From the NCBI RefSeq assembly GCF_037975245.1, contig NC_092566.1, forward strand, positions 2,234,001-2,298,000: DNA of 64,000 nt, in the 5' to 3' direction. Positions 1,814 to 27,019 of this stretch are shown here, in pieces; position 1 is the stretch's first letter; every line of letters starts with the position of its first letter. The notes under the pieces are model-generated. The model saw only the letters and a program-made list of their open reading frames with translations. It did no database searches and was not told the DNA's origin. The translations under genes and the position numbers were made by a program. The stretch comes from Apostichopus japonicus. Taxonomy: Eukaryota; Echinodermata; Holothuroidea; Aspidochirotida; Stichopodidae.

Positions 1814-1926
1814 CTCAGCATTACGGCATTCCATAACTTGAATTAAAGCAAAAGGCCCCGCCCAATGGAGGCTGGCACCAGCAGTACGATACTTCTCAGC
1901 CCAGACAGACAACAGCCTAAAGAAAC
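1814..1926 (-). CDS. CYP4V-like P450, alternative exon 2, cassette V9
   Basis: A 113-nt exon flanked by a ctgcag acceptor and a GAG|GTAAGA donor. It enters in phase 1 (two leading bases complete a codon begun by exon 1) and leaves in phase 0. It encodes 38 residues starting GFFRLLSVWAEKYR, then HWAGPFALIQV, and ending RNAE. The pattern FFxxLxxWxxxYR - WxGPxxxxxV - xxAE is that of the second coding exon of CYP4V-type genes (helix A and the beta 1-1/1-2 strands). It is the cassette farthest from exon 1 in this window. No exon 3 was seen in the 1.8 kb downstream. Confidence 0.85.
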
Positions 1927-2129
1927 CTGCAGTATAGTCATTTTACAAATGTCTGACTGAATATTTGATTTATGAGTTTATTAAGGTAAGGTAACTTTTT
2001 AACGGTAGTCCAACGTGTCCAAGACGATAAAATTTCTGTTCTGATGACTAAAATCAGCTATTATTTACACCAAATCAAGATTTATTTTTTAAATTATAGA
2101 TACTTCCTAAATATGTCAAATGATAAATC

Positions 2130-5100
2130 TCTCCTACAGTGTACTGTACATATTGCTGTTCTGGTCACCAAACCTACACATCTGTCCGACAATGTATATA
2201 TTGGTGTTCTATTCACCAAACCTACAAATCTCTCCTACAGTGTACATATTGCTGTTCTATTCACAAACCTACACATCTCTCCTACATTGTACATATTGGT
2301 GTTCTATTCACTGAACCTACATATCTCTCCTACACATCTCTCCTACAGTGTACATATAGGTGTTCTATTCACTAAACCTTCACATCTCTCACACAGTGTA
2401 CATATTGGTGTTCTATTCACCAAACCTACAAATCTCTCCTACAGTGTACATATTGCTGTTCTGGTCACCAAACCTACACATCTGTCCGACAATGTATATA
2501 TTGGTGTTCTATTCACTAAACCTACATATCTCTCCTACAGTGTACATATTGCTGTTCTATTCACAAACCTACACATCTCTCCTACATTGTACATATTGGT
2601 GTTCTATTCACTGAACCTACATATCTCTCCTACACATCTCTTCTACAGTGTACATATAGGTGTTCTATTCACTAAACCTTCACATCTCTCACACAGTGTA
2701 CATATTGGTGTTCTATTCACCAAACCTACACATCTCTCCTACAGTATACATATTACTTTTCTATTCACCAAACCTACACATCTCTCCTACAGTGTACATA
2801 TTGGTGTTCTATTCACTGAACCTACACATCTCTCCTACAGTGTACATATTGGTATTCTAGTCACCAAACCTACACATCTCTCCTACAGTTTACATATTGG
2901 TATTCTAGTCACCAAACCTACACATCTCTCCTACAGTGTATATATTGGTGTTCTATTCACAAACCTACACATCTCTCCTACAGTGTACATATTGTTGTTC
3001 TATTCACCAAACCTACACATCTCTCCTACAGTGTACATATTGGTATTCTAGTCACCAAACCTACCCATCTCTCCTACAGTGTACATATTGGTGTTCTATT
3101 CACCAAACCTACACATCTTTCATACAGTGTACAAATTACTGTTCTATTCACCAAACCTACACATCTCTCCTACAGTGTATATATTGGTGTTCTATTCACA
3201 AACCTACACATCTCTCCTACAGTGTACATATTGTTGTTCTATTCACCAAACCTACACATCTCTCCTACAGTGTACATATTGGTATTCTAGTCACCAAACC
3301 TACCCATCTCTCCTACAGTGTACATATTGGTGTTCTATTCACCAAACCTACACATCTTTCATACAGTGTACAAATTACTGTTCTATTCACAAACCTACAC
3401 ATCTCTCCTACAGCGTACATATTGGTATTCTAGTCACCAAACCTACCCATCTCTCCTACAGTGTACATATTGGTATTCTAGTCACCAAACATAACATCTC
3501 TTCTACTGTGTACATATTGGTGTTCTATTCACCAAACCTACACATCTCTCATACAGTGTACAAATTACTGTTCTATTCACAAAACCTACACATCTCTCCT
3601 ACAGCGTACATATTGGTATTCTAGTCACCAAACCTACCCATCTCTCCTACAGTGTACATATTGGTATTCTAGTCACCAAACATAACATCTCCCCTACTGT
3701 GTACATATTGGTGTTCTATTCACCAAACCTGCACATCTCTCATACAGTGTACAAATTACTGTTCTATTCACCAAACCTACACATCTCTCCTACAGCGTAC
3801 ATATTGGTATTCTAGTCACCAAACCTACCCATCTCTCCTACAGTGTACATATTGGTATTCTAGTCACCAAACATAACATCTCTCCTACTGTGTACATATT
3901 GGTGTTCTATTCACCAAACCTACACATCTCTCATACAGTTTACAAATTACTGTTCTATTCACCAAACCTACACATCTCACCTACAGTGTACATATTGGTA
4001 TTCTAGTCACCAAACATAACATCTCTCCTACTGTGTACATATTGGTGTTCTATTCACCAAACCTAAACATCTCTCATACAGTGTACAAATTACTGTTCTA
4101 TTCACCAAACCTACACATCTCTCCTACAGCATACATATTGGTATTCTAGTCACCAAACCTACACATCTCTCCTACAGTTTACATATTGGTATTCTAGTCA
4201 CCAAACCTACACATCTCTCCTATAGTGTATATATTGGTATTCTAGTCACCAAACATAACATCTCTCCTACTGTGTACATATTGGTGTTCTATTCACCAAA
4301 CCTGCACATCTCTCATACAGTGTACAAATTACTGTTCTATTCACCAAACCTACACATCTCTCCTACAGTGTACATATTGGTATTCTAGTCACCAAACCTA
4401 CACATCTCTCCTACAGTTTACATATTGGTATTCTAGTCACCAAACCTACACATCTCTCCTATAGTGTATATATTGGTATTCTAGTCACCAAACATAACAT
4501 CTCTCCTACTGTGTACATATTGGTGTTCTATTCACCAAACCTGCACATCTCTCATACAGTGTACAAATTACTGTTCTATTCACCAAACCTACACATCTCT
4601 CCTACAGCGTACATATTGGTATTCTAGTCACCAAACCTACCCATCTCTCCTACAGTGTACATATTGGTATTCTAGTCACCAAACATAACATCTCTCCTAC
4701 TGTGTACATATTGGTGTTCTATTCACCAAACCTACACATCTCTCATACAGTTTACAAATTACTGTTCTATTCACCAAACCTACACATCTCTCCTACAGTG
4801 TACATATTGGTATTCTAGTCACCAAACATAACATCTCTCCTACTGTGTACATATTGGTGTTCTATTCACCAAACCTAAACATCTCTCATACAGTGTACAA
4901 ATTACTGTTCTATTCACCAAACCTACACATCTCTCCTACAGCATACATATTGGTATTCTAGTCACCAAACCTACACATCTCTCCTACAGTTTACATATTG
5001 GTATTCTAGTCACCAAACCTACACATCTCTCCTATAGTGTATATATTGGTGTTCTATTCACCAAACCTACACATCTCTCCTACAGTGTACATATTGGTAT

Positions 5101-5335
5101 TCTAGTCACCAAACATAACATTTCTCCTACTGTGTACATATTGGTGTTCTATTCACCAAACCTACACATCTCTCATACAGTGTACAAATTACTGTTCTAT
5201 TCACCAAACCTACACATCTCTCCTACAGCGTACATATTGGTATTCTAGTCACCAAACCTACCCATCTCTCGTACAGTTTACATATTGGTATTCTAGTCAC
5301 CAAACCTACACATCTCTCCTACAGTGTACATATAG
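2130..5335. repeat. 48-bp minisatellite, about 67 copies, with higher-order structure
   Basis: The unit is roughly CCTACACATCTCTCCTACAG followed by TGTACATATTGGTGTTCTAT and TCACCAAA, 48 bp. Variants carry GGTATTCTAGTC instead of GGTGTTCTATTC, or ACATAACATC instead of CCTACACATC. From about 3000 on, groups of four variant units recur about every 191-192 bp (the marker ACAGCGTACAT is near 3410, 3601 and 3794), which is a higher-order repeat. Because 48 is a multiple of three and the basic unit has no plus-strand stop, long open frames appear (for example 2044-3051, 16-residue repeat PTHLSYSVHIGVLFTK). The TCTAG variant introduces stops, so I do not call a protein. It lies in the P450 intron, 200 bp from cassette V9. 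Confidence 0.97.
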
Positions 5336-6535
5336 GTCATTGTCATTTTACTAAATTTTTTTGGACAACCAAATTTGCTGTTCAGACACCAAAATGTAAG
5401 CCCTGATTGTCCGAAGGTTAACCAGAAAATATAATTTTTCCATAAAAAGTTGATTGCTTAACAAACCTGATGGAAAGTTTCTGCATGTTCAGGTGTCAAA
5501 CCTACAACCTTTTAGAATGTCGTATGGCAAACCTTGGTAATATTACTATGTGAAAGCACTTGGTAACAGCAGAACGGATAATATCATCATTGCAATCGAG
5601 CTAGCTGAAAACGGTTTGGTTTTCATTTATTACTTTTACATATTTTAAAATGAATCATTCTGCTGATGATGTAATGTTTCTCCCAAGAAAAGCATATTTA
5701 TGATAAATTAATAAGATTGTATATAAACAAGACAGTATGCTTCAGAACACTAAACTAGTTTAAACTTGATAGAGCATTACAATTTTAATAGGAAACAATA
5801 TAAATTACCTATATCACTGCCCACCCTCCCCCCCCCTTCCCTCCCGCCCCATCTCTTCTATTCTCTTGGTCCAAAAATTTCACTTTTTCACAATTTAGTG
5901 AGATTCCCACAAAGATGACACAGATTTAATTGTTTGGAAGCAGTCATAATGAGACCAAAGTTAACAATCAGTGTATGCATAAACAGTTAGCAGACTTTGA
6001 TGAAATCAAGCTGTGAGCACAAATAAAAAATGAAAGTTTTTCGCAGAATTTTGTTGAATGTCTGATTAAACCAATGAAAAGCTGAACAAAATGATAGGCT
6101 GTCTTATAGTATATCTAGATAAAATGAAATTTTTGAAGACAACCTGGAAATGTTTTGTACATTTTGTCAGAGAGACATCGAGAGCCAAAATGAATCCCAT
6201 GTCCCAACTTTACAGCTCCCTGACCCATCTCCCCCCTTCCCACCCCTGGATTCGGCCATTTTGCTTGTATTCCTATCAAGGGGAAATTCCACTAATATTT
6301 ATCCAGTTACAGTAAACTTGTACTACAAGTGTCACAAACACAAAAACTCTTAATGAAACTAAAGAAAAAGGCTCATATGTCAACATTTCTGGATTAGCTT
6401 TAATCTATGACTCAAGACCATGAGGTCAACTGTACACAGATACTCTGTACTCACAAAAACTATTACTGAAACGGCTTACTGTGCCATCTACGATCATATT
6501 TCACCTTTTGGTGAGAACTACATATTTTGAATTAT
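5336..6535. other. Non-coding stretch, nothing recognised
   Basis: AT-rich intronic sequence between cassettes V8 and V9 of the P450 gene. It contains a C-rich run near 5825-5850. No exon, RNA or terminal-inverted-repeat element was seen. Confidence 0.5.
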
Positions 6536-6735
6536 AATAATAATAATAATGTTTGATTTATATAGCGCTTTATACCAGCAGTAGGTCTCAAAGCGCTTTA
6601 CAGACGTTATATTACCCCTGGTGAATGATAACCTGTCCCAGAGACAATCCCTCCAGTCGGCAGCAGTTATATACTGTGCCCAATGACAAGTTACCTCACA
6701 GGTACCCATTTAACCCCTGGGTGGTATAATGACTT
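6536..6735. repeat. Interspersed repeat with (AAT)n end
   Basis: An (AAT)n run (6536-6551) is followed by TTTATATAGCGCTTTATACC and a second AAAGCGCTTTACAG motif, ending near ACCCCTGGGTGGTAT. This GCGCTTTA-plus-trinucleotide-tail layout resembles LINE or SINE 3' ends common in aquatic animal genomes. Related pieces are near 12475-12555 and 40154-40200. The family was not assigned. Confidence 0.5.
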
Positions 6736-7734: not shown

Positions 7735-7804
7735 TGATACGTCCAACTCTCTGTACTACCCCATTAATGCTTGTTCTCAGTCACAAAACTACAACACTCT
7801 GCAG
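7735..7804 (+). pseudogene. Non-LTR retrotransposon remnant, upstream half
   Basis: The frame ending NTLQN continues, across the element inserted at 7805, into TATTMIYGRGRRE and LHWVPM at 8282 onward. Together these resemble the LxRVQNAAARLxxGxRR...LHWLPV segment at the C-terminal end of the reverse-transcriptase region in CR1/L2/Jockey-type LINEs. It is decayed and not functional. Confidence 0.5.
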
Positions 7805-8954: not shown

Positions 8955-9067
8955 CTCGATATTATAGCAGTCGATTGTGGTGACTGTAGGCACAGGTCCA
9001 GTCCAGACTACTATGGTACCGGCCGAGCGAAACACATCAGACCAGGCCTCCATCAGCTTGAAAAACA
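8955..9067 (-). CDS. CYP4V-like P450, alternative exon 2, cassette V8
   Basis: A 113-nt exon with acceptor ttgactgcag and donor GAG|GTAAGA, entry phase 1 and exit phase 0. It encodes 38 residues beginning VFFKLMEAWSDVFR, then VVWTGPVPTV, ending CYNIE. The WTGPVPTV core is very close to the beta 1-1/1-2 segment of CYP4V proteins. It is not part of the large tandem duplication and differs from V7/V4 over its first half, so it is an older, independently diverged copy. No other P450 exon is seen within the 7 kb to V9. Confidence 0.88.
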
Positions 9068-9790
9068 CTGCAGTCAAATATCAGAGGATACAAATGCCCC
9101 TTTGGAAGTATTTTGGTTTACCAAATTAAAAAAATAATTTTTCCTAACCTAAACCTATGTCCAACATATTTGAGTTATCTCTGTAGTTCTGTATCACAAG
9201 TTCTTATTATTTAGTAATTTGATATTTGATTCAATTATTTTTATTTGGGGGGGGCAGGATGGTGTGGGTTGGGGTGCATGGAGAGAGGAAAACTGGCACA
9301 CTTCAAACGGGCAGGTGATGATGATGGTGTTTTGGTGCATACTTCATTATCCATGACAAAATCTGGACAGTGGATTCAACTGAGTTTTTTAGATTAAGTA
9401 AAGGTTATCCAGTCTCTCGCAACCCTACCCCTCCCCGACCCCAGCAAGAAAGAAATTGGTAGATCTGATTGCAAAGAGTATGGGGACATTTTACAAACTA
9501 GAGAGCATAAAATAATAAAACAAATATCAACAACCAACACAAAGAAGTTGCTTTAAATGTGGTTTGAAGACAAAGATGACACTGAACTGCTTCTTGTTTC
9601 ACATATATCAAGATAAAACATATATATATATGTCATCATGAAACTTGACCAAGAAGTTTATTCTATGTCGGAAAATCAACTACTGGGCATCTAATAGGGG
9701 TTAAAACAGTAAGTGTACAGAACTGGTCTAGAACAGTACTGATGTTGTAATGATGGTGTAATGATGTTGTAATGATGTTGGAACAATGTT
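9068..9790. other. Intronic stretch with short simple repeats
   Basis: No exon seen. It includes a G-run (9246-9256), a short (TA)n near 9620 and, at 9738-9790, imperfect copies of a 12-bp GTAATGATGTTG-type repeat leading up to the left boundary of the tandem segmental duplication. Confidence 0.5.
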
Positions 9791-12474
9791 GAAACAATGT
9801 TGTCATGTTGCTGTAATGGTGTTAGTGCATAGAACTGGTCTAGAACAGTAATGATGTTGTCATGATGTTGTAGCTAGAAAAACAGAAATTGCAAATAAAA
9901 CTTTAAATCATGGGTCACAAACCATGAAAGAAAACCTCAATCCATGTTGTCTGTGTGTAATAATTTACCGGATATTAGGCTCCTTTGAGATTATTCCCTT
10001 CATAACAGTGTATTCTTCAAAAATTATCGGAAGGTACAGTATTTAAAACTTTCTTGGTTTGACTTTACTTTGAGCTGATGACCATCAATTGGTTTCTTTT
10101 CCAAGTACTCCAAACATGTACTACATGACCAAAACTGTCCAATATATGTTAATTTCAAACATGCAGCAGACATCCGCCGCTTTTGATAGTGCTTCAAACT
10201 GTACATCAATTGAGAAACAGATCCAGTCAGACACTTCCCTGCCTTTTAAAAAAATCTTTTGAAAATTTGTATCCCTTAAAAGTAATATCCACTTACGTGA
10301 CATTAAATGCGCTCAGATACTTGACCCATGGTTTGACTTATTAATCATGGACATTAGTCACAATACTCCAAAAGGAGGAGCTACAATAAGTTTGCTAACC
10401 TTTTATCCTTCTTGTGGCTTGTGACTTTTGACCTATTTTCTGTAATGTTTATTTGTACCCCTTCTCAAGTTGATTACTAGTCCATGGTTGCTACGGTGCC
10501 TTTTTGAATTATTCTTGAATTCCTTTTGGCCACTTAGAACTTCAAATGATCATGGTAATCTTGTTTTGGAGTAATTTCTTTTTAATATCAACATATGTTT
10601 GTCACCAACTTTCATCAATTTCATGGATTAAAGCCCTCCAGAAAAGATCCATTCAAGGATCATTTCACATTCTGCTAATTATGAGCTTTAAAATGACCTC
10701 TAGTTTCTTAATACCCTTGTAAAACTGTTGTGCCCCCCTACCCCTCCCCTCCCCTCCAACTAACCATATCAGACTAAATCCCTAGTTGAAGAGAACTATA
10801 CTGCAAGGAGTCATCATTGGACCTGCCATGATCCCACATGAACTTTAACCTACTTTCTATGTAAAACGTAACGAAGTCCCCGACATAGACGACTCTCGCA
10901 AGGATCAAGAAAATGGGCTGCGGGTGACAGCCTTTGAACTGATGTATGTATGTGTATGCGTGTGCGTGTATGTGTGCATATATGTATGTAGGCATGATTA
11001 GGCATTTAGGCAGGCAGGTAGGCAGGTGTGGTTGAAAGCATGCATGCAGGCAGGATTGCCGATCGGCAGACAGACACTTGAATAGCAATGGCAATTGAGC
11101 AAAAGTGTAAATGCATGATTTAATGGGACACTATTATCAAACTATTTACCAGTCCTTAATTCGAACCCCGCCACTTTTACCACCCTTTCCTCAGAGGTTT
11201 TGCTTATAACTTGTGGGAAGTGAAAATTAATGTTAACTTATTACTGATTATATAATAAGTTGGTTAAACCTGCATATTGTGTTGAATATTGGTACAATCT
11301 TTTGGTACCTGCAACCCAATAGGCAACAGAAAAACCCAGTTCTTGGGAACATAATCTGTGACTTTACTTTATATAAAGTCCTAAAAAAAAAAATTTGATC
11401 AAATTATAAAAAAAAACCGATACAACGCAATACATTACATTTATGGAACACAGATTTTCTGTACAAGATAAGACAGTGAATAATCCTAATTTGAAGCATC
11501 AAATTAGTGGAACCACATTGGTCTCTTCTCAAACTGTGGGTTATCCAATGTAACAACAGTTTATTATGACATGCCTTGATCAGAATGACACAAAGTAACA
11601 TAATTTTACCCAATGCAAACTTGCTTTTAACCCTCTGACTCTCCGGTAACAAATTTTCTTAATTCAAGACAGTGGCGTACTGAGCTGGGACGGGGGGTGG
11701 GGGGCTGGGGTGGTGGTCCACCCCGGGTATCAGACAGGAGGGTGCCATGCCACAGCCCCCCCACCCCAAAAAGAGAAAAAAAGAGACTGAAATAGGAGAA
11801 ATAAGAATGAGAATTCCTAAACATATAATCAGTTCAAAGCTTTTTGCCAAAGATAGTACCATTTTGCATCTAAGCTTTAAAACAACACTCCCTCCCCTTA
11901 GACCCCTCCCCCAGGGTGACACCCACTGCAGAGGATGACAAAGGAAGGATCCGCCGCGGGTGCCACTTTTCTAGGGGCCATTGGTTCAAGGTCATCACTA
12001 TTGGCCTCAAATTTTAGCTTGCTAAAAAATCCTTGAAGTTTTCAATCATAACTACAGTATGAAATGTTTCCTGAAAGGTAATGAGGACGGTATTGAAGAA
12101 CTTAGCATGCATAGACTCTGGATGTGTGACCTGATTAATTCACTTTGCCTTCGGCTTTGAGTACAGCATTTCTGTATATGTTGCTGTGTTGAACAAATCT
12201 AATCATAATAGTAATTACCTTTGTGATCCATGTTATAGTCATTGCCATCATTGCAGATTATTTTCAAAAAAGTTAAGATCTGATCTTCAAACTCATTCCC
12301 AGCCATTGAGGTGTGTTAAGTAATTAAGTATCCCAGCACGGATAGCTAAGTTTTGAAAATTGAAGTAAAACGCCTTTTGAAGTTTGACCAGTAACTGACT
12401 TTCTAACATATTCTGCGGCTATACTGATCTCCCGAATGTAATGATGCAGTGATTACCAGCATTTACTTTCTTTG

Positions 12475-12555
12475 TAAAGCGCTTTGAGCAGTAACTTTTG
12501 TTTACTGATTTGGCGCTATATAAGTCTCATTTATTATTATTATTATTATTATGTG
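12475..12555. repeat. Retroelement 3'-tail-like insertion with (ATT)n
   Basis: TTGTAAAGCGCTTTGAGC, then GGCGCTATATAAG and an (ATT)n run. This is a common LINE/SINE-type 3' end. It is present in duplication unit 1 and absent at the matching place in unit 2 (around 17262), so it either inserted after the duplication or was lost precisely from unit 2. Confidence 0.5.
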
Positions 12556-12941
12556 AGAGAGTCATAATTAAGGGTTGTTGTAATTTTCTAATGGGAAAAG
12601 CTTTGGACTGAGACATGTATCATCAATTGTGTACATGTCCACCCCATACTAACTGATAGCTTTTACATTCTGCTTCTCTTAAAGCCATTTATAGTTGTGA
12701 CAGTCTACATTTTATACTTACGACAGATTAAATATTATTGATCAAATATGAAAAAAAGATTATAGGATGCTAGGATCAATAAAAGTGGAATGCCTAGCAC
12801 CCAGGAATAACTCCCCCCCCCCCGACACCTGCCGTCCCCATCTCAACCTGTAGTGGGGTCTCTGTAACACGATGAATTGCAATACAAAATAAAAAACCAT
12901 TATTTATTGAGTTATATGTTTCTGTTTTTTCCTCGACTAAC

Positions 12942-13054
12942 CTCAACATCATGAGCCAAAAAAGTACCCACACTTGGAACAGGCCCAGTCCACACTACAA
13001 CAGCACTGTCCTTGCCATAAGTTTCATGTATTTTGGTGGTGAACTTGAAGAATG
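12942..13054 (-). CDS. CYP4V-like P450, alternative exon 2, cassette V7
   Basis: A 113-nt exon with acceptor tggtttccag and donor GAG|GTTAGT, entry phase 1 and exit phase 0. It encodes 38 residues: AFFKFTTKIHETYGKDSAVV, then VWTGPVPSVG and TFLAHDVE. It is the unit-1 sister of V4, differing at three residues (Y/F early, QT/PS after WTGPV) and one silent site. It has complete WxGPxP and VE landmarks of CYP4 exon 2. Confidence 0.88.
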
Positions 13055-13499
13055 CTGGAAACCAATGGTCATTAAAAGGTACAAAACATGGTGGTTGTGA
13101 TTCCCAAAAATGCCCATGTCAGTGGTTCCTCCACCTCTCCCTCCACCGCAAGAACAAAATGTTCTTTGAAATGAGATTGTACAAAATGTTTTTTTTTTCT
13201 TAGGCTTTGAGAGCAAATGACTCCATCCTCAGTTACCAAATGTAGTTGAATACAAGCCGTTAGTGTACATTTAGCAAAAGATCAGTTGCATGTATTGAAA
13301 TATTGCATGTGTGAACAGAATGCATGACTTTTACATGCATAGTGGAGTTAAATGATGCTATATATATGCAGTCAACAAATATAGTCAAATCAAGAGGTAA
13401 ATGATTTTAACATTCCAATAAGTTGCTATCTTTAAAGGATTTCCATTTACTTTAGCACTTTTCAATGGCTAAGAATAAAACTGTGAGAGGTATAAATTA

Positions 13500-14230
13500 G
13501 TGTTTGCACGGGGTACAAGGTACCCACCCGACGCGATACTACCCGGTTCCTAATTTATTCCCCGAATCCTACACAAAGTGTGACTTTTTCTTCTTGCAAA
13601 CCGATGTTAGGCAAGATTTTCCCATTGACTTAGCATGGTGTTAGGCTACCATATGGAAGAAATTGTAAGAATTCTCAGAATTATTATTTCTTCATTCGTT
13701 TATTTCATAGGAGAGACTGACAAGGAAATTTACGAGATGTTACTAATAGATTATAGACGGGATAACTAAAAAATAATAATCGCAAGTGGCTTTTTACTAA
13801 ACGTTTGTTATAAATGCGATCAAATTGTGGATTGCACAATTCCACAGCTGATGCGAACCCTGGGCCTGCATAATAGATAGTAGTAGTAAAAACGGTTTAA
13901 TAGCTACAGTAAATTGGATATTTATATGATCTAATCCAATAGAGGTGGAGAGCAAACATATGCAGCTGCGGCAGTGCGCTGTTAGTAGTGATGTTAATTA
14001 TATGAAGTTATTAACAAGTTAATGAAAGCAACAAAGGCAAATAGAAATTATTGAGGAAGGTTTTATACCTTATCTTACATTTATTTGAACATGAAAACAT
14101 TGTCAGTGGAGAATTCAGTATAGCAGCATATCCAATATGTAATTTCTTGAAAATCGCGATACACAAGGGTAAACAATTGTTTTCTGGTACCCAGATATCC
14201 GACGGGTAACAACTCTCGGGTACCTGGTTC
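13500..14230. mobile_element. TA-target terminal-inverted-repeat element, right end lost
   Basis: The left end GTGTTTGCACGGGG begins directly after TA (13498-13499). Its partner end survives only in duplication unit 2, where GGACCCATGTAAACAC (ending 18456) is followed by TA; the inverted ends match at about 11 of 13 positions. In unit 1 the right end is removed by a deletion between CCC microhomologies (near 14230). In unit 2 the left part is missing. Target preference TA suggests a Tc1/mariner-like element; no transposase was seen. The right boundary is approximate. Confidence 0.45.
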
Positions 14231-14528
14231 CCAAAAGGGGTCAACCCTGACCCTATTTCAAATACAGGCTTTTTCATTATAGACTTGGTAGGGTAAAGAA
14301 GATCACAGACTTGATTGTGTACTGTATGTATCAACTATAAGAAGCAAAGTTATGCAAGTAACAAGGTTACATATTACATGTTTACCTTCAGTGGCACGGT
14401 TTACCTTGAATAAGATGGTTTACTGTACAGATAAGGTGAAGTTATCTTATCAACAAGTTGTTGAAAAAGAGTTAATGGTTACAGTGAGAACCTTTGGTAC
14501 AGTTTATAGAATATCCGTTATTGAGGAG

Positions 14529-14834
14529 AGAATAACGTAAGGTGACCATATTTTGTAAATACGAATCAGGGACAAACTATTGAATGTGGAATGAGCATCC
14601 TGGGAATGGGGTCTAATGAGGGGAAGGACACCCTCCCCCTCCCCCTCCCCCTCCCCTGTGAGAAACAATATGCTAGTCTGGTAGAGCACAGAAATGGCAG
14701 GAAGGTAAATTTTGCAACATTTCTAAATCTGATGTGAATAAAATTTCAGATTTTAAAACATTGGACAAAACAATGGATTCATGGGATAGGGCCTATATCC
14801 ACAAATTGGGGACATCTGGTCACCTTAGAATAAC
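14529..14834. mobile_element. Non-autonomous TIR element with 8-bp target duplication (unit 1 copy)
   Basis: Element 14537-14826 (290 bp), with left end gtAAGGTGACCATAT and right end ATCTGGTCACCTT as inverted repeats. It is flanked by AGAATAAC on both sides (14529-14536, 14827-14834). The 8-bp duplication suggests a hAT-like element. The same insertion is present in unit 2, so it predates the segmental duplication. It contains a CCCTCC run near 14630. Confidence 0.7.
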
Positions 14835-15030
14835 TGCAAGTTCATTAACCATTCTACAGTACATAGAAAACTATTAGCAAAAAAAATCAAATGAAAAAAA
14901 ATCAAATTTGATTTGAATTGCATTTGCAATTACAGCAACTACCCTTCTTAGGTTGGACAAGTCAGTCATAGAAAAGGTAACTAGCCAGTAAGGTACAACA
15001 CCAAAAACCTATCATACTATTAATACTCAC

Positions 15031-15131
15031 TACAGCAAAGTTATCGAAAAATGGACTACCTGTACCTTGGCTCAACACCAAGAACACCTCAGGAAACCAT
15101 AAACCAGTCCCTATCAATTGGTTTAGAGAAG
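15031..15131 (-). CDS. Possible diverged P450 exon 2, cassette V6
   Basis: A 101-nt open segment with acceptor actattgtag and donor GTA|GTGAGT, again entry phase 1 and exit phase 0. It encodes 34 residues starting ASLNQLIGTGLWFPEVFLVL. LWFPEVFLVLS could correspond to the LWLGPxPFVVLS core of CYP4 exon 2, but the FF start and the terminal VE are absent and the exon is four codons short. The polypyrimidine tract is poor. It is probably a decayed or strongly diverged cassette; a chance open segment is possible. Confidence 0.3.
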
Positions 15132-15829
15132 CTACAATAGTCACATATTTCTCAAGTAGGCTGCTCTCACATTATCAGAGCACCCAGAAAATGCCCTGCT
15201 TTACCCACAAATGTTTTGCTTTTGAGATATGTGACAATTCAAGGCTGGTGTCCCACCAGAGGTGGTGGATCTTACAGTTAGTTAAACTGGGCCTGGGGGT
15301 TTTTGGTTACCAACTCAATGGCTAAATGACACTACGTTTGTGCAGTACTTAACAGAATTTGAAATGTAGGGTATGTATACCAAGGAATTACCTCAATCTG
15401 TTGTCATAAAGTATCTTTTGAAGGGTTGTCTGTTGAAGGTCCCCCAAGTAGATCCATCTCTACCATTGCAACAGGTACACACTGCTAAATTACAGGGTTA
15501 CCCTAAACAAGGTGTGTTGGATGACCAAAACATGCAGGTACCAAAGATAGCCCAAAGGAGCTATGAAGAATTTTCTCTCCTTTCCCTTGAGAGTGTCAAA
15601 CTCCTTAATCTAACACAGATAGGGTCTCAAATAAGCTACTGTAAGGCTTCCTGATCCTTGGGTTTCTAAACCCAACTAATCTATCCCAGCACATTCCGAG
15701 AGTGAGAGAACATCTCTAAGAGGGGGGTGGTGAGCTAATGTGCTTATCGGTACACTAATGCATATTATATTCATATTCCAATACCAATCATGTATACTGC
15801 TAATATTAAGCACCGCCCACTGCTCTCAC

Positions 15830-15945
15830 CTCAGCATTATTAGCACTTAAAGTCAAGACTGCAGGCTGCACACTTGAGAAGAGGAGCCTGAATGCACCAA
15901 ACTCTTGATATTCATTCATCCACATTGTCAGTGATCTGAAACATT
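15830..15945 (-). CDS. CYP4V-like P450, alternative exon 2, cassette V5
   Basis: A 116-nt exon with acceptor ttttttgtag and donor GAG|GTGAGA, entry phase 1 and exit phase 0. It encodes 39 residues: ECFRSLTMWMNEYQEFGAFR, then LLFSSVQPAVLTL and SANNAE. It is the unit-1 sister of V2. It differs by replacing the conserved small residue and first Phe (GFF becomes ECF) and R by Q in the EYR motif, which could mean weakened constraint. The WxGP core of other cassettes is replaced by LFSSVQP in both sisters. Confidence 0.75.
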
Positions 15946-17651
15946 CTACAAAAAATGAAACAATGTTGTCATGATGCTGTAGTGATGTTAGTGCACAGAA
16001 CTGGTCTAGAACAGTAATGATGTTGTAATGATTTTGTAGCTAGAAAATCAGAAATTGCAAATAAAACATTAAATCATGGGTCACATACAATGAAATAAAA
16101 CCTCAATCCATGTTGTCTGTGTGTAATAATTTACAGGATATTAACCTAGTTTGAGATCATTCCCTTCACAACAGTGAATTCTCCAAAAATTATCGGAAGC
16201 TAAGAAGAATTTTCTTAGTTTGACTTTACTTTGAGCTGATGACCATCAATTGGCTTCATTTCCAAGTCCTCCAAACATGTGCTACATGACCATGTGCTAC
16301 ATGTGCTAAATAACTAGTTGAAGAGAATTATACTTAAAGGAGTCATCATTGGACCTGCCATGATCCCACATGAACTTTTGTGCCCCCTCCTCCCCCTCCA
16401 ACTAACCATATCAGACAAAATCCCTAGTTGAGGAGTGTTATAAGAGTCATCATTGGACCTGCCATTATTCCACATAAACTTTAACCTACTTTCTATGTAA
16501 AACGTAGATGGAGTCCCTGACATAGACGACTCTCGCAAGGATCAAGAAAATGGGCTGCGGACGACAGCCTTTGAACTGATGTATGTATGTGTATGCATGT
16601 ATGTGTGCATATATGTATGTAGGCATGATTAAGCATTTAGGCAGGCAGGCAGGTGTGGTTGAAAGCATGCATGCAGGCAGGATTGCCGATAGACAGACAG
16701 ACACTTAAGCAATGCCAATTGAGCAAAAGTGTAAATGCATGATTTAATTGAACACTATTATCTAACTATTCACCGATCCTTAACCCCCTTTACCACCCTT
16801 CCCCAGCAGTTTTGCTTATAACTTGTGTGAAGTGAAAATTAATGTTAACTTATTAGTGATTACATTAGTCGGTTAAACCTTCATATTGTGTTGAATATTG
16901 GTGGTGGGTGGGGGGGTGGGGTGGTCCGGGTATCAGTCAGGAGGGTGTCATGCCATAGCCCTCCCCCCCCCAAAAAATGAGAAACAAAATCTAATCATAA
17001 TACCTTTGTGATCCACGTTGAAGTCATTGCCTACATTGCGGATTATTTTCACAAAAGACTTTCCCAGTTAAGCTCTGATCTGCAAACTGATTCCCAGCCA
17101 TTGAGGTGTGTTAAGTAAATAATTAAGTATCTCAGCACGGATAGCTAAGTTTTAAAAATGGAAGTAAAATGCTAGCTGAAGTTTGACCAGTATCTGACTT
17201 TCTAGCATATTCTGCAGCTATAATGATCTCACTAATGTAATGATGCAATGATTACCAGCATGTAAGAGTGTAAAAATTAAGGGTTGTTGTAATTTTCTGA
17301 TGGGATATAGCTTTGGACTCAGACATGTATCATCAATTGTGTACGTTTCCACCCCATACTAACTGATAGCTTTTACATTCTGCTTCTCTTAAAGCCATTT
17401 ATAGTTGTGACAGTCTACATTTTATACTACGACAGATGTAATATTATGAATCAAAAATGAAATAAAGATTATACATAAATGCTAGGATCTTTAAAAGTGG
17501 AATGCCTAGCACCCAGGAATAACCCTCCCCCCCCCTCCACCATCCCCATCTCAAGCTTTAGAGGGGTCTCTGTAACACAATGAATTGCGATACAACAAAA
17601 AAAGGCCCTAATTTATTGAATTACATATGTTTTTGTTTGATCCCGACTTAC

Positions 17652-17764
17652 CTCAACATCATGAGCCAAAAAAGTACCCACAGTTTGAACAGGCCCAGTC
17701 CACACTACAACAGCACTGTCTTTGCCATAAGTTTCATGTATTTTGGTGGTGTACTTGAAGAATG
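17652..17764 (-). CDS. CYP4V-like P450, alternative exon 2, cassette V4
   Basis: A 113-nt exon with acceptor tggtttccag and donor GAG|GTAAGT (the best donor of the array), entry phase 1 and exit phase 0. It encodes 38 residues: AFFKYTTKIHETYGKDSAVV, then VWTGPVQTVG and TFLAHDVE, a good fit to CYP4V exon 2. It is the unit-2 sister of V7. Confidence 0.88.
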
Positions 17765-18792
17765 CTGGAAACCAATGGTCATTAAAAGGTACAAAACATG
17801 GTGGTTGTGATTCCCAAAAATACCAATGTCAGTGGTTCCTCCACCTCTCCCTCCTCCGCAAGAACAAAATGTTCTTTGAAATGAGTTTGTGCAAAATGTT
17901 TTTTTTCTTAGGCTTTGAGAGCAAATGACTCCATCCTCAGTTACCAAATGTAGTTGAATACAAGCCGTTAGTGTATATTTTGCAAATGAGTTGCATGTAT
18001 GGAAATATTGCATGTGTGAACAGCATGCATGACTTTTACATGCATAGTGGAGTTAAATGATACTACTGTATATGCAGTCAACAAGTATGGTCAAATCAAG
18101 AGGTAAATGATTTTAACACTCCAATGAGTTGCTAGCACTTTCCATTCACTTTAGCACTCTTCAATGGCTGAGAATTAGTTAGTAGTGATGTTAATTATAT
18201 GAAGTTTTTAACAAGTTAATGAAAGTAACAAAAGCAAATAGAAATTATTGAGGAAGCTTTTATACCTTATCTTACACTTATTTGAACCTTAAAACATTGT
18301 CAGTGGAGAATATAATTCATTTAGTATAGCATCCAATATGTAATTTCTTGAAAATCGCGATACACGAGGGTAAACAATTTTTTTCGGGTGCCCGGATACC
18401 TGATGGTTAAAGGCTCTCGGGTACCTGGTTCCCGGTTTTTGGACCCATGTAAACACTAGTATAAATCCTATAATATCACCTCAGAACTTCATGGACAAAA
18501 TCCCAAAAGGGGTCAAGCTTGACCCTGTTTCAAATACAGGCTTTTTCATTATAAACTTGGCAGGGTAAAGAAGATCACAGACCTGATCATCGTGTATGTA
18601 TTGACTGTAAGAGTCAAAGTTATGCAAGTAACAAGGTTACATACATGTTTACCTTCAGTGAAATGGTTAACCTTGAATAAGATGGTTTACTGTACAGGTA
18701 AGGTAAAGTGATCTTATCAACAAGTTGTTGAAAAAGAGTTAATGGTTACAGTGAGAACCTTTGGTACAGTTTATAGAATATCCCTTATTGAG

Positions 18793-19086
18793 AGAATAAC
18801 GTATGGTGACCATATTGTGTAAATTATGAATCAGGGACAAACTGTTGAATGTGGAATGAGCAGCATGGGAATGGGGCCTAATGGGAGAGGAAGGGTGTCC
18901 TCCCCCTCCCCTATGGGAAACAAAATACTAGTCTGGTAGAGCACATATATGGCAGGAAGGTAAATTTTGCAACATTTCTAATGATCTGATGTGAATAAAA
19001 TGTCAGATTTTAAGACATTGGGGACAAAACATTGGATTCAGGGACTGTATCCAAAAACTGGGGACATCTGGTTACCTTAGAATAAC
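18793..19086. mobile_element. Non-autonomous TIR element with 8-bp target duplication (unit 2 copy)
   Basis: Element 18801-19078, the same insertion as 14537-14826. Flanking AGAATAAC is present on both sides (18793-18800, 19079-19086). Terminal repeats have decayed slightly (TATGGTGACC against GGTTACCTTA). Confidence 0.65.
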
Positions 19087-19970
19087 TGCAAGTTTATCAA
19101 CCATTCTACAGTACACAGACAACTATTAGCAATAAAAATCAAAATGAAAAAAAATCAAAATTTGATTTAAATTGCATTTGCAATTACAGCAACTGGCCCT
19201 GCCCTTTACACCACATGAATCACATCTCTGTAGCCGATTGTTTTTCCCAGTAGCATTGGAAAATGCTACGCAAACTGGTCAAATGCTATCCAAAGAAGTG
19301 TAGCATTTTTTTCCACACAGGAACCATCATATTTTTATCAGAAGCAATCTTCACAACCTTCAAAATGGCTACACAAATTTTGAACACTAATTTATTCCCT
19401 GCTCTGGGTATGCTTTCTCGTCAGGACACAGTGTGTGTCAATTTGTTTAATGTGCATACAAGATACATTGATGTGTAGATGTCCTTTTTGGCAATCAAAC
19501 CATTCCAAGGACTCAAACTGGTTCAAATCTTACTACTGATTAAAGAAATCATGGACAGACAGATCACAGGTTCACAGTTTTTAGTAGGTTAATTACTTGA
19601 ATGCTATGATAGCAATATTATTAACACAACATAGTCAGAGATTAGTACAGATATTTGAAGACCAAAGGTCAACCAATGAATATTCAAATGATTAACCAGA
19701 GCTTTGGAAGGCTCATAAACAAAACAATGCAACCAATCTAAAGAACCACACTGATCCGTATTATCAGAAATGAACTTAATGTTTTCATAACTTGTCTTCA
19801 TTTGACAAATTAATCTGATCTGAACTGTACAATGCTATGGAAGACCTCTCCGTAAGCACCCCCCACCCCCCCCCCCACCCATGCCTTCTTAGGTTGGGCT
19901 AGTCAGTCATAGAAAGGTAACTAGCCAGTAAGGTACAACACCAAAAACCTATCATACTATTAATACTCAC

Positions 19971-20074
19971 TACAGCAAACAATTGTCGAAAAAATGGACT
20001 ACCTGTACCTTGGCTCGACCCCAGGAACACCTCAGGAAACCATAAACCAGTCTCTATCAATTGGCTAAGAGAAG
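19971..20074 (-). CDS. Possible diverged P450 exon 2, cassette V3
   Basis: The unit-2 sister of V6: 104 nt, same acceptor (attgtag) and donor (GTA|GTGAGT), same phases, 35 residues starting ASLSQLIETGLWFPEVFLGS. It carries a net 3-nt difference from V6 near its 3' end and stays open, so length changes have respected the frame. It has the same weaknesses as V6 (no FF, no VE end, poor pyrimidine tract). Confidence 0.3.
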
Positions 20075-20781
20075 CTACAATAGTAATATATTTCTCAAGT
20101 AGGCTGTTCTCACATTATCAGAAGACCCAGAAAATGCCCTGCTTTACCCACAAATGTTTTGCTTTTGAGATATGTGACAATTCAAGGCTGGTGTCCCACC
20201 AAAGGTGGTGGGTCTTACAGTTAGTTAAACTGAGGGTTTTAAGGTTACCAACTCTAAGGCTAAATGACACTACTTTTGTGCAGTAGCAGAATTTGAAATG
20301 TAGGGTATGTATACCAAGGAATTACCTCAATCTGTTATCATAAAGTATCTTTTGAAGGGTTGCCAAAACAAGTAGATCAATCTCTACCATTGCAAGAGGC
20401 CTGGTGCACACTGCTAAATTACAGGGTTACCCTTGAACAAGGTGTGTTGGATGACCAAAACATGAAGGTACCACTGATAGTCCAAAGGAGCTGAGAAGAA
20501 TTTTCTCTCCTTTCCCTTGGGAGTGTCAAACTCCTTAAGCTAACACGGATAGGATCTCAAATAAGCTACTGTAATGCTTCCTGATCCTGGGTCTCTAAAC
20601 CCAACTATTTCTATCCCAGCACATTTCGAGAGTGAGAGAACCTCTCCAAGAGGGGTTGGTGAGCTAATGCGCTAATCGGTAAACTAATGCAAATCATATT
20701 CATATTCCAATTGAATACTAATCATGTATACTGTATTACCATAGTGGTATACTATATTAAGCACCGCCCCACTGCTCTCAC

Positions 20782-20897
20782 CTCTGCATTATTAGCACTT
20801 AAAGTCAAGACTGCAGGCTGCACACTTGAGAAGAGGAGCCTGAATGCACCAAACTCTCGATATTCATTCATCCACATTGTCAGTGATCTGAAAAATC
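20782..20897 (-). CDS. CYP4V-like P450, alternative exon 2, cassette V2
   Basis: A 116-nt exon with acceptor catttttgtag and donor GAG|GTGAGA, entry phase 1 and exit phase 0. It encodes 39 residues: GFFRSLTMWMNEYREFGAFR, then LLFSSVQPAVLTL and SANNAE. The FFxSLTxWxxEYRE start and the NAE end are typical of CYP4 exon 2, but there is no tryptophan in the beta 1-1 strand. Confidence 0.85.
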
Positions 20898-20910
20898 CTA
20901 CAAAAATGAG

Positions 20911-23259
20911 GAGAAAAAATTAGAACAAGAAAACCTCATGCTCAAAGAGCAGGAAAAGACTACAAAAAAAAACCACACTAAAACCTGGATTAATATCCAA
21001 TGACACAAGGGATTTTCCAGATGTGAAAATGTTTGAGGAATATCAAATTTTCTCTGAGTTTTCCTATTACCTCCTCTCTGACTGGTTTAATTTTATAGAT
21101 GTTGCTGAATATTTAATGGGGATAAGCTGGAAGTATAATCAGCTCATGATAATATGATAAAAAAGCCAAATAGCTTTCTAAAATAGCTTTCTAAAATAGC
21201 TTTCAGAAGCTTCAATGATGCAACTCCTTTTGATATATAGAAGTGTCTTCTAGTTCTGTTTTAAGCAAGCAATGAATGCTACATATATGCAAAGCTACCC
21301 TAGAGTCTTGTTTCAGTTGAGATTCATGTACTTGTTGTGACACCAAATTTTTTTATTCCCATCTTAACCAAAGCTAGTGGAGGTGGTAGTTTGATTCACT
21401 TAGATAAATAATTTCAGAATGAGATGATGACCATTTGATCATGAAAGAAAAATCAGTTTGATAAAGGACCAGAATAGAGTAAAATAGGGAAGATGGTCCA
21501 ATGGGAAGGAAGCCATGCAGCCGTTGACCAATGCACCTTTCATACGGACATCTTGTGACCTGCAAAGTAGAACGGCTTACATAGATGTTACTGAGGAGAA
21601 AGCCCTTAACATCAACAACCGCTGTCCAATCAAATAGCAGAGATTAATGCCAGAAAAGGCCCGACCTTTTATAACTGTCCAAAGTTGTCCGACCATAGGA
21701 CAGAGCTTGACCACTTACAAGTGGCTCACTCTAGTAAAACATGTCCCACCATAGACTAGCTGAGCTTGCTTGCCTGATAGTGGTGCACTCTGCCAAAATC
21801 GCCCAACCATAGGGCTCAGCTTGACCACCTGAAAGTGGCTCACTCTTGTACAACTATCCAACCAAAGGTCCAGCCTTGGCTGCCTGATAGTGGTGCACCC
21901 TGCCATGTCAGTGATCCAACCAAAGGCCCACCTCTGACCTCATTCTGATAAAACTGTACCAAGCTGTTGAAAAGTCCTAATGTTAAATTGGACAGGTCTG
22001 CATACTTGAACAATAACGGAAACACAGAACTTCTAAAGCAATTTCATTTTACTTTAGTCCACCAGAAAAAACTCCCAAGAAATACTGACAATTTCAGAGG
22101 TTTGCCAGCGAAACAAAGCACAATCAGTTACTGTACATTAATGTTTTCATTATGAGCATAACATGTACAACCCCCCTACCTCCCCCCTCCCCCATTAGGA
22201 GTGGTCATACAGCTACTATATTATCTAACTTCATAGATCTGTTTGTTAGGGTTCAGGGATATCCATTTGTGTGTGAGCTCACAACTATACAACTCTGTCA
22301 GAATGTTACAAAGTTCATAACCAACACAGCTCTCAATTGTTACAGGTCAGACTAACAGTACAGTAAAACGATAACATGATTGGGGAAGTAAAGGTGCTCT
22401 CAAAAATGTTCTGTGTGCTTTTCTTGCCTTCCTGTCATAAAAGCTATGTGTGTTTGCGATGAAATGCTTCCCATCAGTCAAACATTTTCAAACACAAAAC
22501 ATGTTACGTAAAATCAGGGTTAAACAAACCTAATTCTAAATCTGGATTATCCAAACCTAATCTTAATCTGTATCCTGAAAATTATCCAAACTCAAAACAA
22601 CTTACAACATTCTTCTGATTATAATTGTGTACTATAGTACTGTACAGATTTCTTCTACTTCAAATATCATTAAACAACAAAAGTGTTTTGTTAACATCAC
22701 AACTACACAACATCTTTTAAACACTTTTTGTTGTTGTTGCAATACTGTATTTCACATTATGATATAAATTCTACCATGTACAGACAATATTAATGGCAAA
22801 CTATACTAAAGTAAAGGAAGTTTACACCTATCTGCTTTTTTTTCAGAACTTAGAAGACCTCCTGTCCTGAACAGTCAAAGATGATCCATATTTTAACATG
22901 TTTTTGGTTCAAAAAGTGAGGTGATTTTTCCTTCTTTTTTTCTTGTGAAAGCAAACATTAGCCCTCATGGAAAGAAATATCCCCCGTGTGAATGTTAATA
23001 TGTGTAAGAATCAAAGTGGAAATATTAATGTAGTTTTAGTCTAATATGGTTAGTTGACAACGGCTAGGTCCTTCTTGGCTAGTGAATGAGTATGTTTAGT
23101 TCAGCTGTGGATTATTTCTAGTCGTCGGGTTACATTGGGTCCGTACGTACAGTATTACACCTACCCTTTAATAGGACAACTGACATCGTAAATATAACTA
23201 GAATGATTTTATTACTTTGTGACCTAATTGTTAAATCTCCTCTCCACCAAAATTCTCAC
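20911..23259. other. P450 intron between V1 and V2
   Basis: No exon seen. It contains a degenerate minisatellite at 21692-21930 and a C-rich run near 22170-22195; otherwise AT-rich unique-looking sequence. Confidence 0.5.
21692..21930. repeat. Degenerate 56/58-bp minisatellite
   Basis: ACCATAGG/ACCAAAGG starts recur at 21692, 21748, 21806, 21861 and 21919 (spacings 56, 58, 55, 58). Alternate units share AAGTGGCTCACTC or GATAGTGGTGCAC, so the true period is a dimer of about 114 bp. Confidence 0.75.
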
Positions 23260-23372
23260 CTCAACACCACCAGGATTTAGAAGAAAAATAATAGGACTAA
23301 ACATCATCTGAAAGCCTATTTGACCGTAGTGTCGATGCTGTTCAGCCCACACCATAAGCTGAGTAAAAAAAG
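23260..23372 (-). CDS. CYP4V-like P450, alternative exon 2, cassette V1
   Basis: A 113-nt exon with acceptor tctgattgcag and donor GAG|GTGAGA, entry phase 1 and exit phase 0. It encodes 38 residues: AFFTQLMVWAEQHRHYGQIG, then FQMMFSPIIFLL and NPGGVE. It is the cassette nearest exon 1 (3.5 kb) and outside the duplicated units. AFF and VE anchors are kept. The core FSP replaces WxGP. Confidence 0.85.
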
Positions 23373-26300
23373 CTGCAATCAGAAATAGAAACTGTCATCA
23401 ACAAAATTTGAAGAAAACAGAGAGAATGAAGAGACAGACTTTACAGAGATACATTACTTTGGCAACCGGAAAGAAAAAGATCCGATGAAAGAATTCCCCA
23501 TACATGATTTTTTAAGTCCAGAAATTGGCAAAATGAGCTATATAAAAGTATCTTGTAAATTTTTATTATATTGTGAAATATGGTCGAGAAGCTCCAATCA
23601 ACATTAGTGTCATTAATTTCCACATTTCCCACAATTCCATAGCATATTATAAAAACTTTGAAAAGAAAAAAAAAGTGTAGTTTTTGGGTAAATAAGTCTC
23701 TTTTCTTTCTTGATGTCGGTTTTCAAATTGCAAAGAACTGAACCCTCTGCAGTCCTTTCATCTTCCATTCATTGCGCAGTCCATTCTTCTAACCTTTTCT
23801 ATTCTATTGGTTGTTTAATTGTATCCTGTTAATTTGCCTGTCACATCTGTCACGTTAACTTGTTTCACCCGTTTCCAGTTTAGTCTGTCTTTGAAGAAAA
23901 TCCTAGCAGGGATCAATATGCCAGACTACCCTTTGAACTTTTATACATCTTAATACCTATGGGAGTCCTTTTTGCAGTAGATAATTTTTACTTTTGTTAA
24001 CATGTTTTAGTTTCTTTCTTTTCCTTTCTTCTAAGGTGACTTACAGTAACTTTTCTCTAATGACCAAGCTGATCCTCTGAGACAACAACTAATATCACCT
24101 AAGTATTTAATCTACTTGTAAATGCAATGTCTGCTGCTAATATCATTTCATGTTTATATTGAACAGGAAAACTCCATTTCCAGGACCATATCCACACATG
24201 TGCATCTTTTAGTTCTGGGACAGATCAAGTGTTACAAATGCCCATAAACAACAGACAACATATTGATTGATTGACTGACCGGTTAATTTATTGACTAATT
24301 GATTGATTGATTTTTTGCAACAAATCTGAATTTGACATACCAAAGAATTTAGACAATTTTTGATCTATTTACTGTAACATTTCATGTTACAAAGTAAAAA
24401 AGTTTCTAGTTAGTTGTTCCTACGAGCTCACTTTCTCTTTGAGTGAATCTTTGAATCTCAAAACGGCTTCTTTGGGCAGTTTTAAGGGAAAGTGAAACTT
24501 TTTTCTTTCTAGGCCTAGATGTCATTTTCTTAGAACCCATACATAGAAATGTTAGATACAAGCAATAGTTTCCCAGGTTCACTGGGAGCTCTGGATTTCA
24601 TTTCCGCATAATTGAAATAGAATGAAACCTGAGACATTGGTTGCCAAATGACAATGTCTTTTGACAAGCAATGCCAGAAGAAAGAACAGTTCACTAATAT
24701 GTATGCTTTCTATAAAATTACATCATAAAAAGGAAAAAACGTTTTTCATTTCCAAATATTTCTGTATTTGATGTAGAGGGACTGTGAGTGGTATTAAATA
24801 CAATCATCAAATCAACCAGGTTATCTGACTTTCTAGCAGTTTTAAAAACTAGTCTTCATTTCAATAACGCACTGTAGAAAAAGAAACGAACCAGACATGT
24901 TAATATTCCACTGCAGCATGAAATTTGATTTTGTTATCTTTTCTGACAAAAAAAGGTAAAGCCATACCATGCTTAAAATGAGAAATAATAGTCATTCAAA
25001 GAAGCACTGTAACCTGTGTTCAGCCGAAAACTTGCAGCTCAGCATGTAATAAGGCAGAAGCAAAAGCCATGTTAAAATAACTTTGCAGTAAAACAAATGA
25101 GACCATATCAATCAAGTACAAAAATTTGTTGACAGCATGTTGGATGTTTATTTTAATTGCACACAAAATACATATTGCATGAAACACAGCTGCATCTAAG
25201 GTTACCAGGGGCCAATAAGTTCTTATGCTTCTTGTAGTGGGAAGTTGGTACAGTATGTCAAGCAAATGTTTGAAGTTGTGATGCAATGGTTGAAGTCTGT
25301 GCTGTAATACTTGAAGTCTGTGATGCAATGGTTGAAGTCATGTTTAAAATGTAATAAACTTGCCACTATTCATGAGAGTTACATATGGCAACTGATGACA
25401 TCACAGAAATGTTTGTGCAACAACAGGGAGGCCTAAGCTGTATATAATAACTTTTGTTGCTAGGCTAGGCTACAAGATAACTTACTTATACACATTATAA
25501 TTAATGTTGGGCCTACTGTAGGCTAGATTTAAGTTTAACGTGTGAGTATTGATTGCTCTCGCTCCTGTAAAAGAACACGGGTTGCTTAATAGTACGGCAA
25601 TCAATACGCTCAATGTACAGCTTAGGCCTCCCTGATACATTTGGAAGGCTAGTCTAGGTTGGTACAATATCCAGGACTTATGGATGGTACAAAAATGTTG
25701 GTCTTCAATTAATGAGATATGTAAGGAAATGACTCCAAAGTTCTATTTGTTTAACAAATGTGCATCTCTCCTGCTTTCTTAATGATCAAGTTAGTTGTCC
25801 AAGAAAAGCCACGTATACTATAAGGTTAATGTCTGAAAACTTGCTCTTGACTCACATTTGGGGACATCAAAGTGCAGTTTTTGGTTGTTTGTTGAGATCA
25901 ATTTTCATCAACATGAATTTTTAAACCTGAGTAGTTTTACATTTAAATCACAAATATTATAACCAAGTCAACTTTTCACATTTTTACACCATTTGTATTA
26001 GAAATTTGTCAATTTTGTATACAGCTGCTATGGAATACCGGCTACTGTATCACTCTAACAGAATATTTAAATTACAATTCTCAGAATATATTAAATATAG
26101 TTTTCTCCCAAACTTGTACATCTTTCTTCAGTTATTTAAAGTTTTTCAGTTATGATATTTCCAAGCAAAACTGGGTCTTAATTTGAAGATAATGACAAAT
26201 GAGTGAAGCAGATACTGAAAGGAATGAATGAGAAACATAGCAGTCTGTGCAATCTTTGTTTGATCCCTTGATCATTCTTTGAATTTGTCATTCTGAAAAA

Positions 26301-26853
26301 CATGATCCGAGGATCAGGAAATTACCAGAGGTCCTCTAAACTTTCAACGTTTACATATCAATGCTATTGTAAGTCAGAAAATAACTTAACATTTGGGGTA
26401 GTTCTTATTACTTTTTACTTTCTTTACAAAATTTTAAAGTGTGCCATTAAACTATATAAACATGAAAGAACTGGAAAATCTTTAAGAGATGGAACATTAA
26501 AAGTGACTATTTTTTTGTATTTTTGTTAAACATATTAAATGCACATAAATTACATAGGATAACCACACATATCAATAGCCAAGTGGAAAATATCTAGTAT
26601 GATTAAATTTTACCCCTTTTCTTTGAGGGGTGGGGTTGAAAACTGACAACTTTTTGAATGAAGTTAATTGAATAGCAGCTAGTGAAACAAGTTTTTTTCA
26701 CATTTATATTATACATTACATAATATGTTACTAATCATTAAGAAAGAATTTGCATCACACCACATACCAGTATCAACAACAGGAATCAAATCCCAGTAGA
26801 TATTTGTAATACTGCCCCCATAGCCCCACCCCTCTGTGGGGTACCACACATAC
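23373..26853. other. P450 intron 1, no gene seen
   Basis: AT-rich intron between exon 1 and cassette V1. Short imperfect repeats (TTGAAGTCTGTGATGCAATGG type) lie at 25270-25340. No other exon or element was recognised. Confidence 0.5.
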
Positions 26854-27019
26854 CTCTGGGATCTGTATCAAACTGGTACGCATTTCCGATGATTGGGTAT
26901 GCTTTGGGACCGGGGAACTTGCTCATGATGTACCATAACTTCATTTGACGAAAGAACAGGTATCCCATCAGAATGCAGACCAGCAAAAAGATGGCTATAA
27001 TGCCGACACCCATTGCCAT
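26854..27019 (-). CDS. Cytochrome P450 family 4 (CYP4V-like), exon 1: membrane anchor and hinge
   Basis: Encodes 55 codons plus one base. Residues 1-4 precede a hydrophobic anchor (about 5-23, GIIAIFLLVCILMGYLFF), then basic residues and the P450 hinge KFPGPKAYPIIGNAYQF (34-50), ending DTDPR. The hinge PFPGPxxxPxxGN is diagnostic of microsomal P450s, and the exon break after it matches CYP4V genes. The start is supported by ACCATGG context; a second ATG is two codons on. The donor is GAG|GTATGT, phase 1. A 5' UTR acceptor (ttcccag) is possible at 27039-27040. This is the only first exon found for the nine downstream cassettes. Confidence 0.9.

Follow-up and report, generated by a model that had tools for sequence, protein, structure and literature searches.

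A predicted CYP4-type cytochrome P450 gene with an array of eight alternative second exons in the sea cucumber Apostichopus japonicus

P450 families widen by duplicating whole genes. An exon swap within a single gene is described for human CYP4F3 in the portion of PMC12380495 cited here: exon 3 or exon 4 supplies residues 67-114, the two versions being 27% identical, and the swap switches the enzyme between arachidonic acid and leukotriene B4. The model in that portion sets the swapped segment at the substrate channel. Clusters of mutually exclusive exons are recognised, according to the section of PMC3228551 used here, by like length, by splice sites and frame, and by homology. Mutually exclusive splicing that alters enzyme specificity is called rare in the cited part of PMC7434440, which names CYP4F3. 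In the open-access PMC literature, represented mostly by abstracts, we found no P450 in which alternative homologous exons number more than two.

The locus described here resembles CYP4F3 (CYP4F3A/CYP4F3B) in its predicted CYP4 family membership and in an alternative exon that swaps the segment after the N-terminal anchor (PMC12380495, in part). However, CYP4F3 is a vertebrate gene with two such exons, a swapped segment of 48 residues and an experimentally shown switch, whereas the present gene is known from sequence and has eight such exons and a segment of 38 or 39 residues, with borders that are not identical. With insect Dscam1 and Mhc it has in common a series of homologous exons that agree in length and frame, of which one is used per mRNA in the insect genes (PMC3228551, in part), but those genes encode adhesion or motor proteins, whereas a metabolic enzyme is predicted here and docking/selector pairing was not found by an exact-word scan. 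The nematode coq-2 is similar in that mutually exclusive splicing changes enzyme specificity (PMC7434440, in part), but it is a two-way choice (coq-2a/coq-2e) in an enzyme of quinone synthesis. We regard the array as an eight-fold version of the CYP4F3 two-exon switch joined with a mutually exclusive exon array, and not as categorically new. Our main reading, to which we give a probability of roughly 0.8, is that the locus would be one CYP4-type P450 gene of ~42 kb, with a common first exon (E1), eight mutually exclusive second exons (cassettes) and a common nine-exon tail.

Gene model and exon-2 cassettes

The window (the whole stretch of DNA that was analysed, 64 kb, C6:2234001-2298000, where C6 is contig NC_092566.1) was examined together with 30 kb of its left flank, into which the minus-strand gene was expected to continue. 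No N occurs in the resulting 94 kb, and a window position equals the C6 position minus 2234000. Exon borders were placed by hand, with open frames, consensus sites and phase as guides, and GT-AG was found at every intron of the gene model (Table 1). The end of the first exon at 26854, as given in an earlier note on this DNA, was confirmed. E1 comprises 55 codons plus one base, begins with an ATG in an ACCATGG context, covers the membrane anchor and the PGP region, and gave a single strong tblastn match in the 94 kb. The single set of exons 3-11 that the same note had predicted to the left of the window was present there: E3-E11 form one complete set of exactly nine exons, left of both the window and the last cassette. 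Upstream of E1, at about 28280..28340 of the window (-), a short ATG-led stretch resembling a signal peptide ends at a donor-like gtaagt; it has no Pfam match and may belong to another gene or be an additional exon upstream.

Table 1. Positions of the exons and of the duplicated unit. Positions are those of the window unless prefixed with C6; E is the value from the HMM trained with the lineage of that cassette left out. Each of E3-E11 has splice sites, an open joined frame and one strong tblastn match.
Feature	Position	Strand	Length (nt)	Left-out HMM E	Remarks
E1, first coding exon	26854..27019	-			donor gtatgt; phase 1 out; exact to the base
Cassette V1	23260..23372	-	113	0.0044	
Cassette V2	20782..20897	-	116	1.1e-5	
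Cassette V4	17652..17764	-	113	0.0021	
Cassette V5	15830..15945	-	116	0.015	recent V2 copy, 4 differences
Cassette V7	12942..13054	-	113	2.5e-4	recent V4 copy, 4 differences
Cassette V8	8955..9067	-	113	4.2e-10	
Cassette V9	1814..1926	-	113	2.2e-11	
Cassette V10	C6:2230783-2230895	-		8.9e-11	left of the window
E3	C6:2228538-2228623	-			begins in phase 0
E4	C6:2224993-2225183	-			
E5	C6:2224392-2224461	-			
E6	C6:2223202-2223328	-			
E7	C6:2222647-2222844	-			
E8	C6:2222025-2222127	-			
E9	C6:2221249-2221386	-			
E10	C6:2219822-2220001	-			
E11	C6:2219029-2219189	-			stop TAA
Tandem duplication of a two-cassette unit	9790..20906	-			about 20906..15956 (V2, V4) and 15954..9790 (V5, V7)

Between E1 and E3, all eight cassettes have the same orientation. 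They agree in length (113 or 116 nt, i.e., 2 mod 3; 8/8), in splice sites and frame (AG acceptor, GT donor, entry in phase 1 and exit in phase 0; 8/8) and, by the left-out HMM, in homology (8/8), which are the features of mutually exclusive clusters listed above. A full cassette HMM was run against the 4242 stop-to-stop ORFs that reach 15 residues or more in the six frames of the 94 kb; it recovered the eight, and the next ORF had an E value of 0.41. This HMM was trained on the cassettes themselves, and runs leaving out one lineage at a time were therefore performed over the six lineages. Every cassette (E 2e-11 to 0.015) ranked above the best non-cassette ORF (E 0.16 to 0.72), with the weakest matches being those of V1 (0.0044) and V5 (0.015). 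The region from E1 to E3 contains 28 open AG-113/116-GT windows, the eight cassettes included, and among intron windows of 113 nt the open fraction is 11.2%. Because open AG/GT windows are common by themselves, it is homology, and not splice sites, that carries the identification of the cassettes.

The earlier note had counted seven to nine cassettes. Its seven clear ones (V1, V2, V4, V5, V7, V8, and V9) were found where it had placed them, and their splice sites are exact and their phases agree. Its two doubtful ones, V3 and V6, gained no support when the 94 kb were scanned twice with an HMM (E 0.41 and 0.43 for the next-best ORFs). With V10 the count is eight, and since V10 was absent from the list in that note, it represents an independent success of that reading. 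The intron between V8 and V9 also holds a 48-bp minisatellite of about 63 copies (window 2145..5337).

The donors read GAG/gt in all eight cassettes. Their scores (7.4-10.0) fell inside or exceeded the range of the constitutive exons (4.2-9.3); the scoring matrix was small, with nine sites, and left-out scoring was applied to the constitutive exons but not to the cassettes. The pyrimidine content of the acceptors ranged from 0.41 in the pyrimidine-poor V9 to 0.88 in V2.

A single set of remaining exons and the joined reading frame

In tblastn searches of the 94 kb, E1 and E3-E11 were each found once, and the other matches of these queries had E values of 0.19 or worse. Nothing P450-like was detected with these queries between the cassettes, from E1 to V10, in agreement with the earlier claim that no other P450 exon lies among them; a separate downstream exon set for each cassette, which would have spoken against the reading of the cassettes as alternative exons of one gene, was looked for as well and not found, E3-E11 being single in the 94 kb. 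Elsewhere on the same contig, at C6:4.217-4.251 Mb, three CYP4-like genes (A, B, and C) stand in tandem, and this arrangement lends some plausibility to the idea that the cassettes are the remains of tandem duplications of the whole gene. Against this, the same tblastn detects the corresponding exons of these three relatives, with identities of about 41-81%, and would probably have revealed further copies at the array. Whole-gene duplication was rejected, as E1 and E3-E11 are single in the 94 kb with none between cassettes, and we consider it scarcely credible. With the other exons single in the 94 kb, the cassettes do not form part of tandem gene copies.

The eight cassettes were then considered as joined transcripts. 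E1 followed by one cassette and E3-E11 gave an intact open frame, 510 or 511 residues long, for each of the eight, and the join without a cassette met a stop at residue 60. When two, three or four different cassettes were joined in genomic order, none of the 28, 56 and 70 combinations, respectively, was open; with four cassettes the frame is restored by length, yet a stop was always met. Among the joins tried (none, one, two, three and four cassettes, in genomic order), an open frame needs exactly one cassette. The cited part of PMC6071210 argues that decay of wrong joins fails to explain exclusivity for exons that are a multiple of three in length or where a cluster has more than three members; we take this argument to rest on the frame returning. 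Inclusion of one cassette only in the mature mRNA is predicted from the sequence, and the frame logic agrees with it. The earlier proposal of a multi-isoform array is strengthened by the single tail and the eight open joins, and that each cassette is spliced, one at a time, is what we infer.

The cassette encodes residues 56-93 (56-94 in V2 and V5), so that 38 or 39 residues would be swapped, a segment that we take, from general knowledge of the P450 fold, to be helix A with strands beta 1-1/1-2. The V10 isoform, which was the only isoform searched, matched PF00067 over residues 36-502 (E 4.6e-113) and the CYP4B1 structure 5t6q, presumably the rabbit protein (E 3.2e-84); two sequences passed 1e-60, and both were CYP4B1. 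The I-helix stretch EVDTFMFEGHDTT is identical in the V10 isoform and CYP4B1. This stretch contains the Glu that binds heme in CYP4 omega-hydroxylases, a role described in the portion of PMC12380495 cited here and in general P450 knowledge. The CYP4 label given in the earlier note agrees with the PF00067 and CYP4B1 matches and with the common I-helix stretch, and the assignment of the predicted protein as a CYP4-type cytochrome P450 is supported.

Divergence of the cassettes

Self-comparison traces the V2, V4 unit and the V5, V7 unit to tandem duplication of a two-cassette unit. The two units are linked by seven self-blastn blocks that are 83.5-90.3% identical counting gaps. In five of the seven blocks (the two left out of the intron comparison contain no cassette), the unit introns differed at 245 of 2868 aligned bases (8.5%), with 38 gap openings. 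The six cassette lineages are far more distant from each other, with a mean identity of 28.9% (16-42%). The near copies V2/V5 and V4/V7 are what uncollapsed haplotypes or misjoined repeats could leave in an assembly, but introns differing by 8.5% with 38 gap openings, the deep divergence of the six lineages and the lack of any N in the 94 kb make such an artefact highly improbable.

The exons of the recent pairs (V2/V5 and V4/V7) showed 8 substitutions in 229 bases and no gaps, which is fewer than in the introns (Fisher p 0.005). Six of the eight changes are replacements, at about 181 replacement sites, and two are silent, at about 50 silent sites; the exon rate was below that of the introns at replacement sites (P 0.004), and the difference at silent sites was not significant (P 0.19). 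The dN/dS of the recent pairs, about 0.8-0.9, is uninformative with 2 silent and 6 replacement changes. Protein-level constraint in these pairs rests on the intron comparison, not on dN/dS, and gene conversion of the exons could be an alternative source of their low divergence. Among the older lineages silent divergence was high, with dS from 0.75 to beyond the limit of the formula. At printed precision, pN was below pS in 23 of the 26 between-lineage pairs, which are not independent of each other; pN exceeded pS for V1-V4 and V1-V9, and V1-V7 was a tie.

These data also bear on whether working exons are limited to one or a few of the cassettes, with the others unused or dying copies. The near-neutral replacement/silent ratio in the two recent pairs and the weak acceptor of V9 are what such a decay would give. 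On the other hand, the frame and splice sites are intact in all eight cassettes despite the low identity and high silent divergence of the lineages, and the recent-pair exons differ less than their introns. Eight intact exons after so much divergence speak against long disuse, and we consider it unlikely that most of the array is idle.

Control of cassette choice, proposed role and relatives

Under the one-gene, eight-cassette reading, splicing would put one cassette, and with it one helix A/beta 1 segment, into each mRNA. All or most cassettes are probably in use, their choice would be mutually exclusive in vivo, and wrong joins would be lost to nonsense-mediated decay. Tissue or an inducer may govern the choice, and the swapped 38 or 39 residues may alter which substrates enter, as is thought for the CYP4F3 segment. 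We see an even chance that the locus is an eight-member enzyme family made from one gene, in which splicing would pick among mostly ancient entrance modules by tissue or chemical exposure, with the array still growing by two-cassette units.

As for how one cassette might be chosen, the inter-cassette introns measure 1.7-7.0 kb, which makes steric exclusion unlikely. A scan for docking/selector pairing with exact 9- and 10-mers, on six cassettes without the recent copies V5 and V7, gave nothing significant; the lowest P among eight tests was 0.07 before correction, and imperfect pairings may exist. No intronic 12-mer common to the six independent cassettes was found within 600 bases. The cited part of PMC3022543 refers to work in which two start sites control the choice of exon in CYP4F3, and by analogy a promoter-linked choice of cassette in the sea cucumber gene is possible.

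If the reading is true, the locus would widen the metabolic repertoire by splicing, in place of the usual duplication of P450 genes, and would extend the use of Dscam-style exon arrays to a metabolic enzyme. With eight entrance modules on one catalytic body, what the access segment contributes could be told apart from what the rest of the enzyme contributes. Such a natural series would allow a direct test of how strongly helix A and beta 1 determine the substrate choice of a CYP4 enzyme, a question raised by the CYP4F3 forms.

Single cassettes were also used as queries against the whole genome, with E values up to 10 accepted. The V8 search gave seven matches, five in the array and one in exon 2 each of relative A and of a fourth CYP4-like relative, D, at C17:2.01 Mb; it missed V1, V2, and V5. 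The V2 search gave three matches, all within the array, and missed V1, V4, V7, V8, and V9. No further cassette array was seen genome-wide with V8 and V2, the two cassettes searched by themselves (V10 was also searched within the isoform). These two short queries are insensitive, and arrays of distant cassettes elsewhere in the genome are possible.

The relatives A, B, C, and D have one recognisable exon 2 each (stretches L004-L006 and L008), with the phase of the exon-2 acceptor in A being provisional. Exon 2 is 52-59% identical among A, B, and C, compared with the mean of 28.9% for the six cassette lineages of the array gene, and these three genes (L004, L005, and L006; C6:4216501-4249000) have the same exon plan as the array gene. 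Two of the six relative loci were uninformative: L007, which holds a C17 relative, yielded no exon 2, and the single match in L009 was to exon 10. In relative D, a 100-bp tandem repeat of nine copies (L008, 4953..5855) holds the 3' part of exon 2 together with its donor and yields several partial matches to the cassette HMM. These are partial exon copies only, and they could be raw material for new cassettes.

Elsewhere in the window, at 54111..55445 (-), lies an intronless open frame of 444 residues that matches the class A GPCR family (PF00001, E 2e-30).
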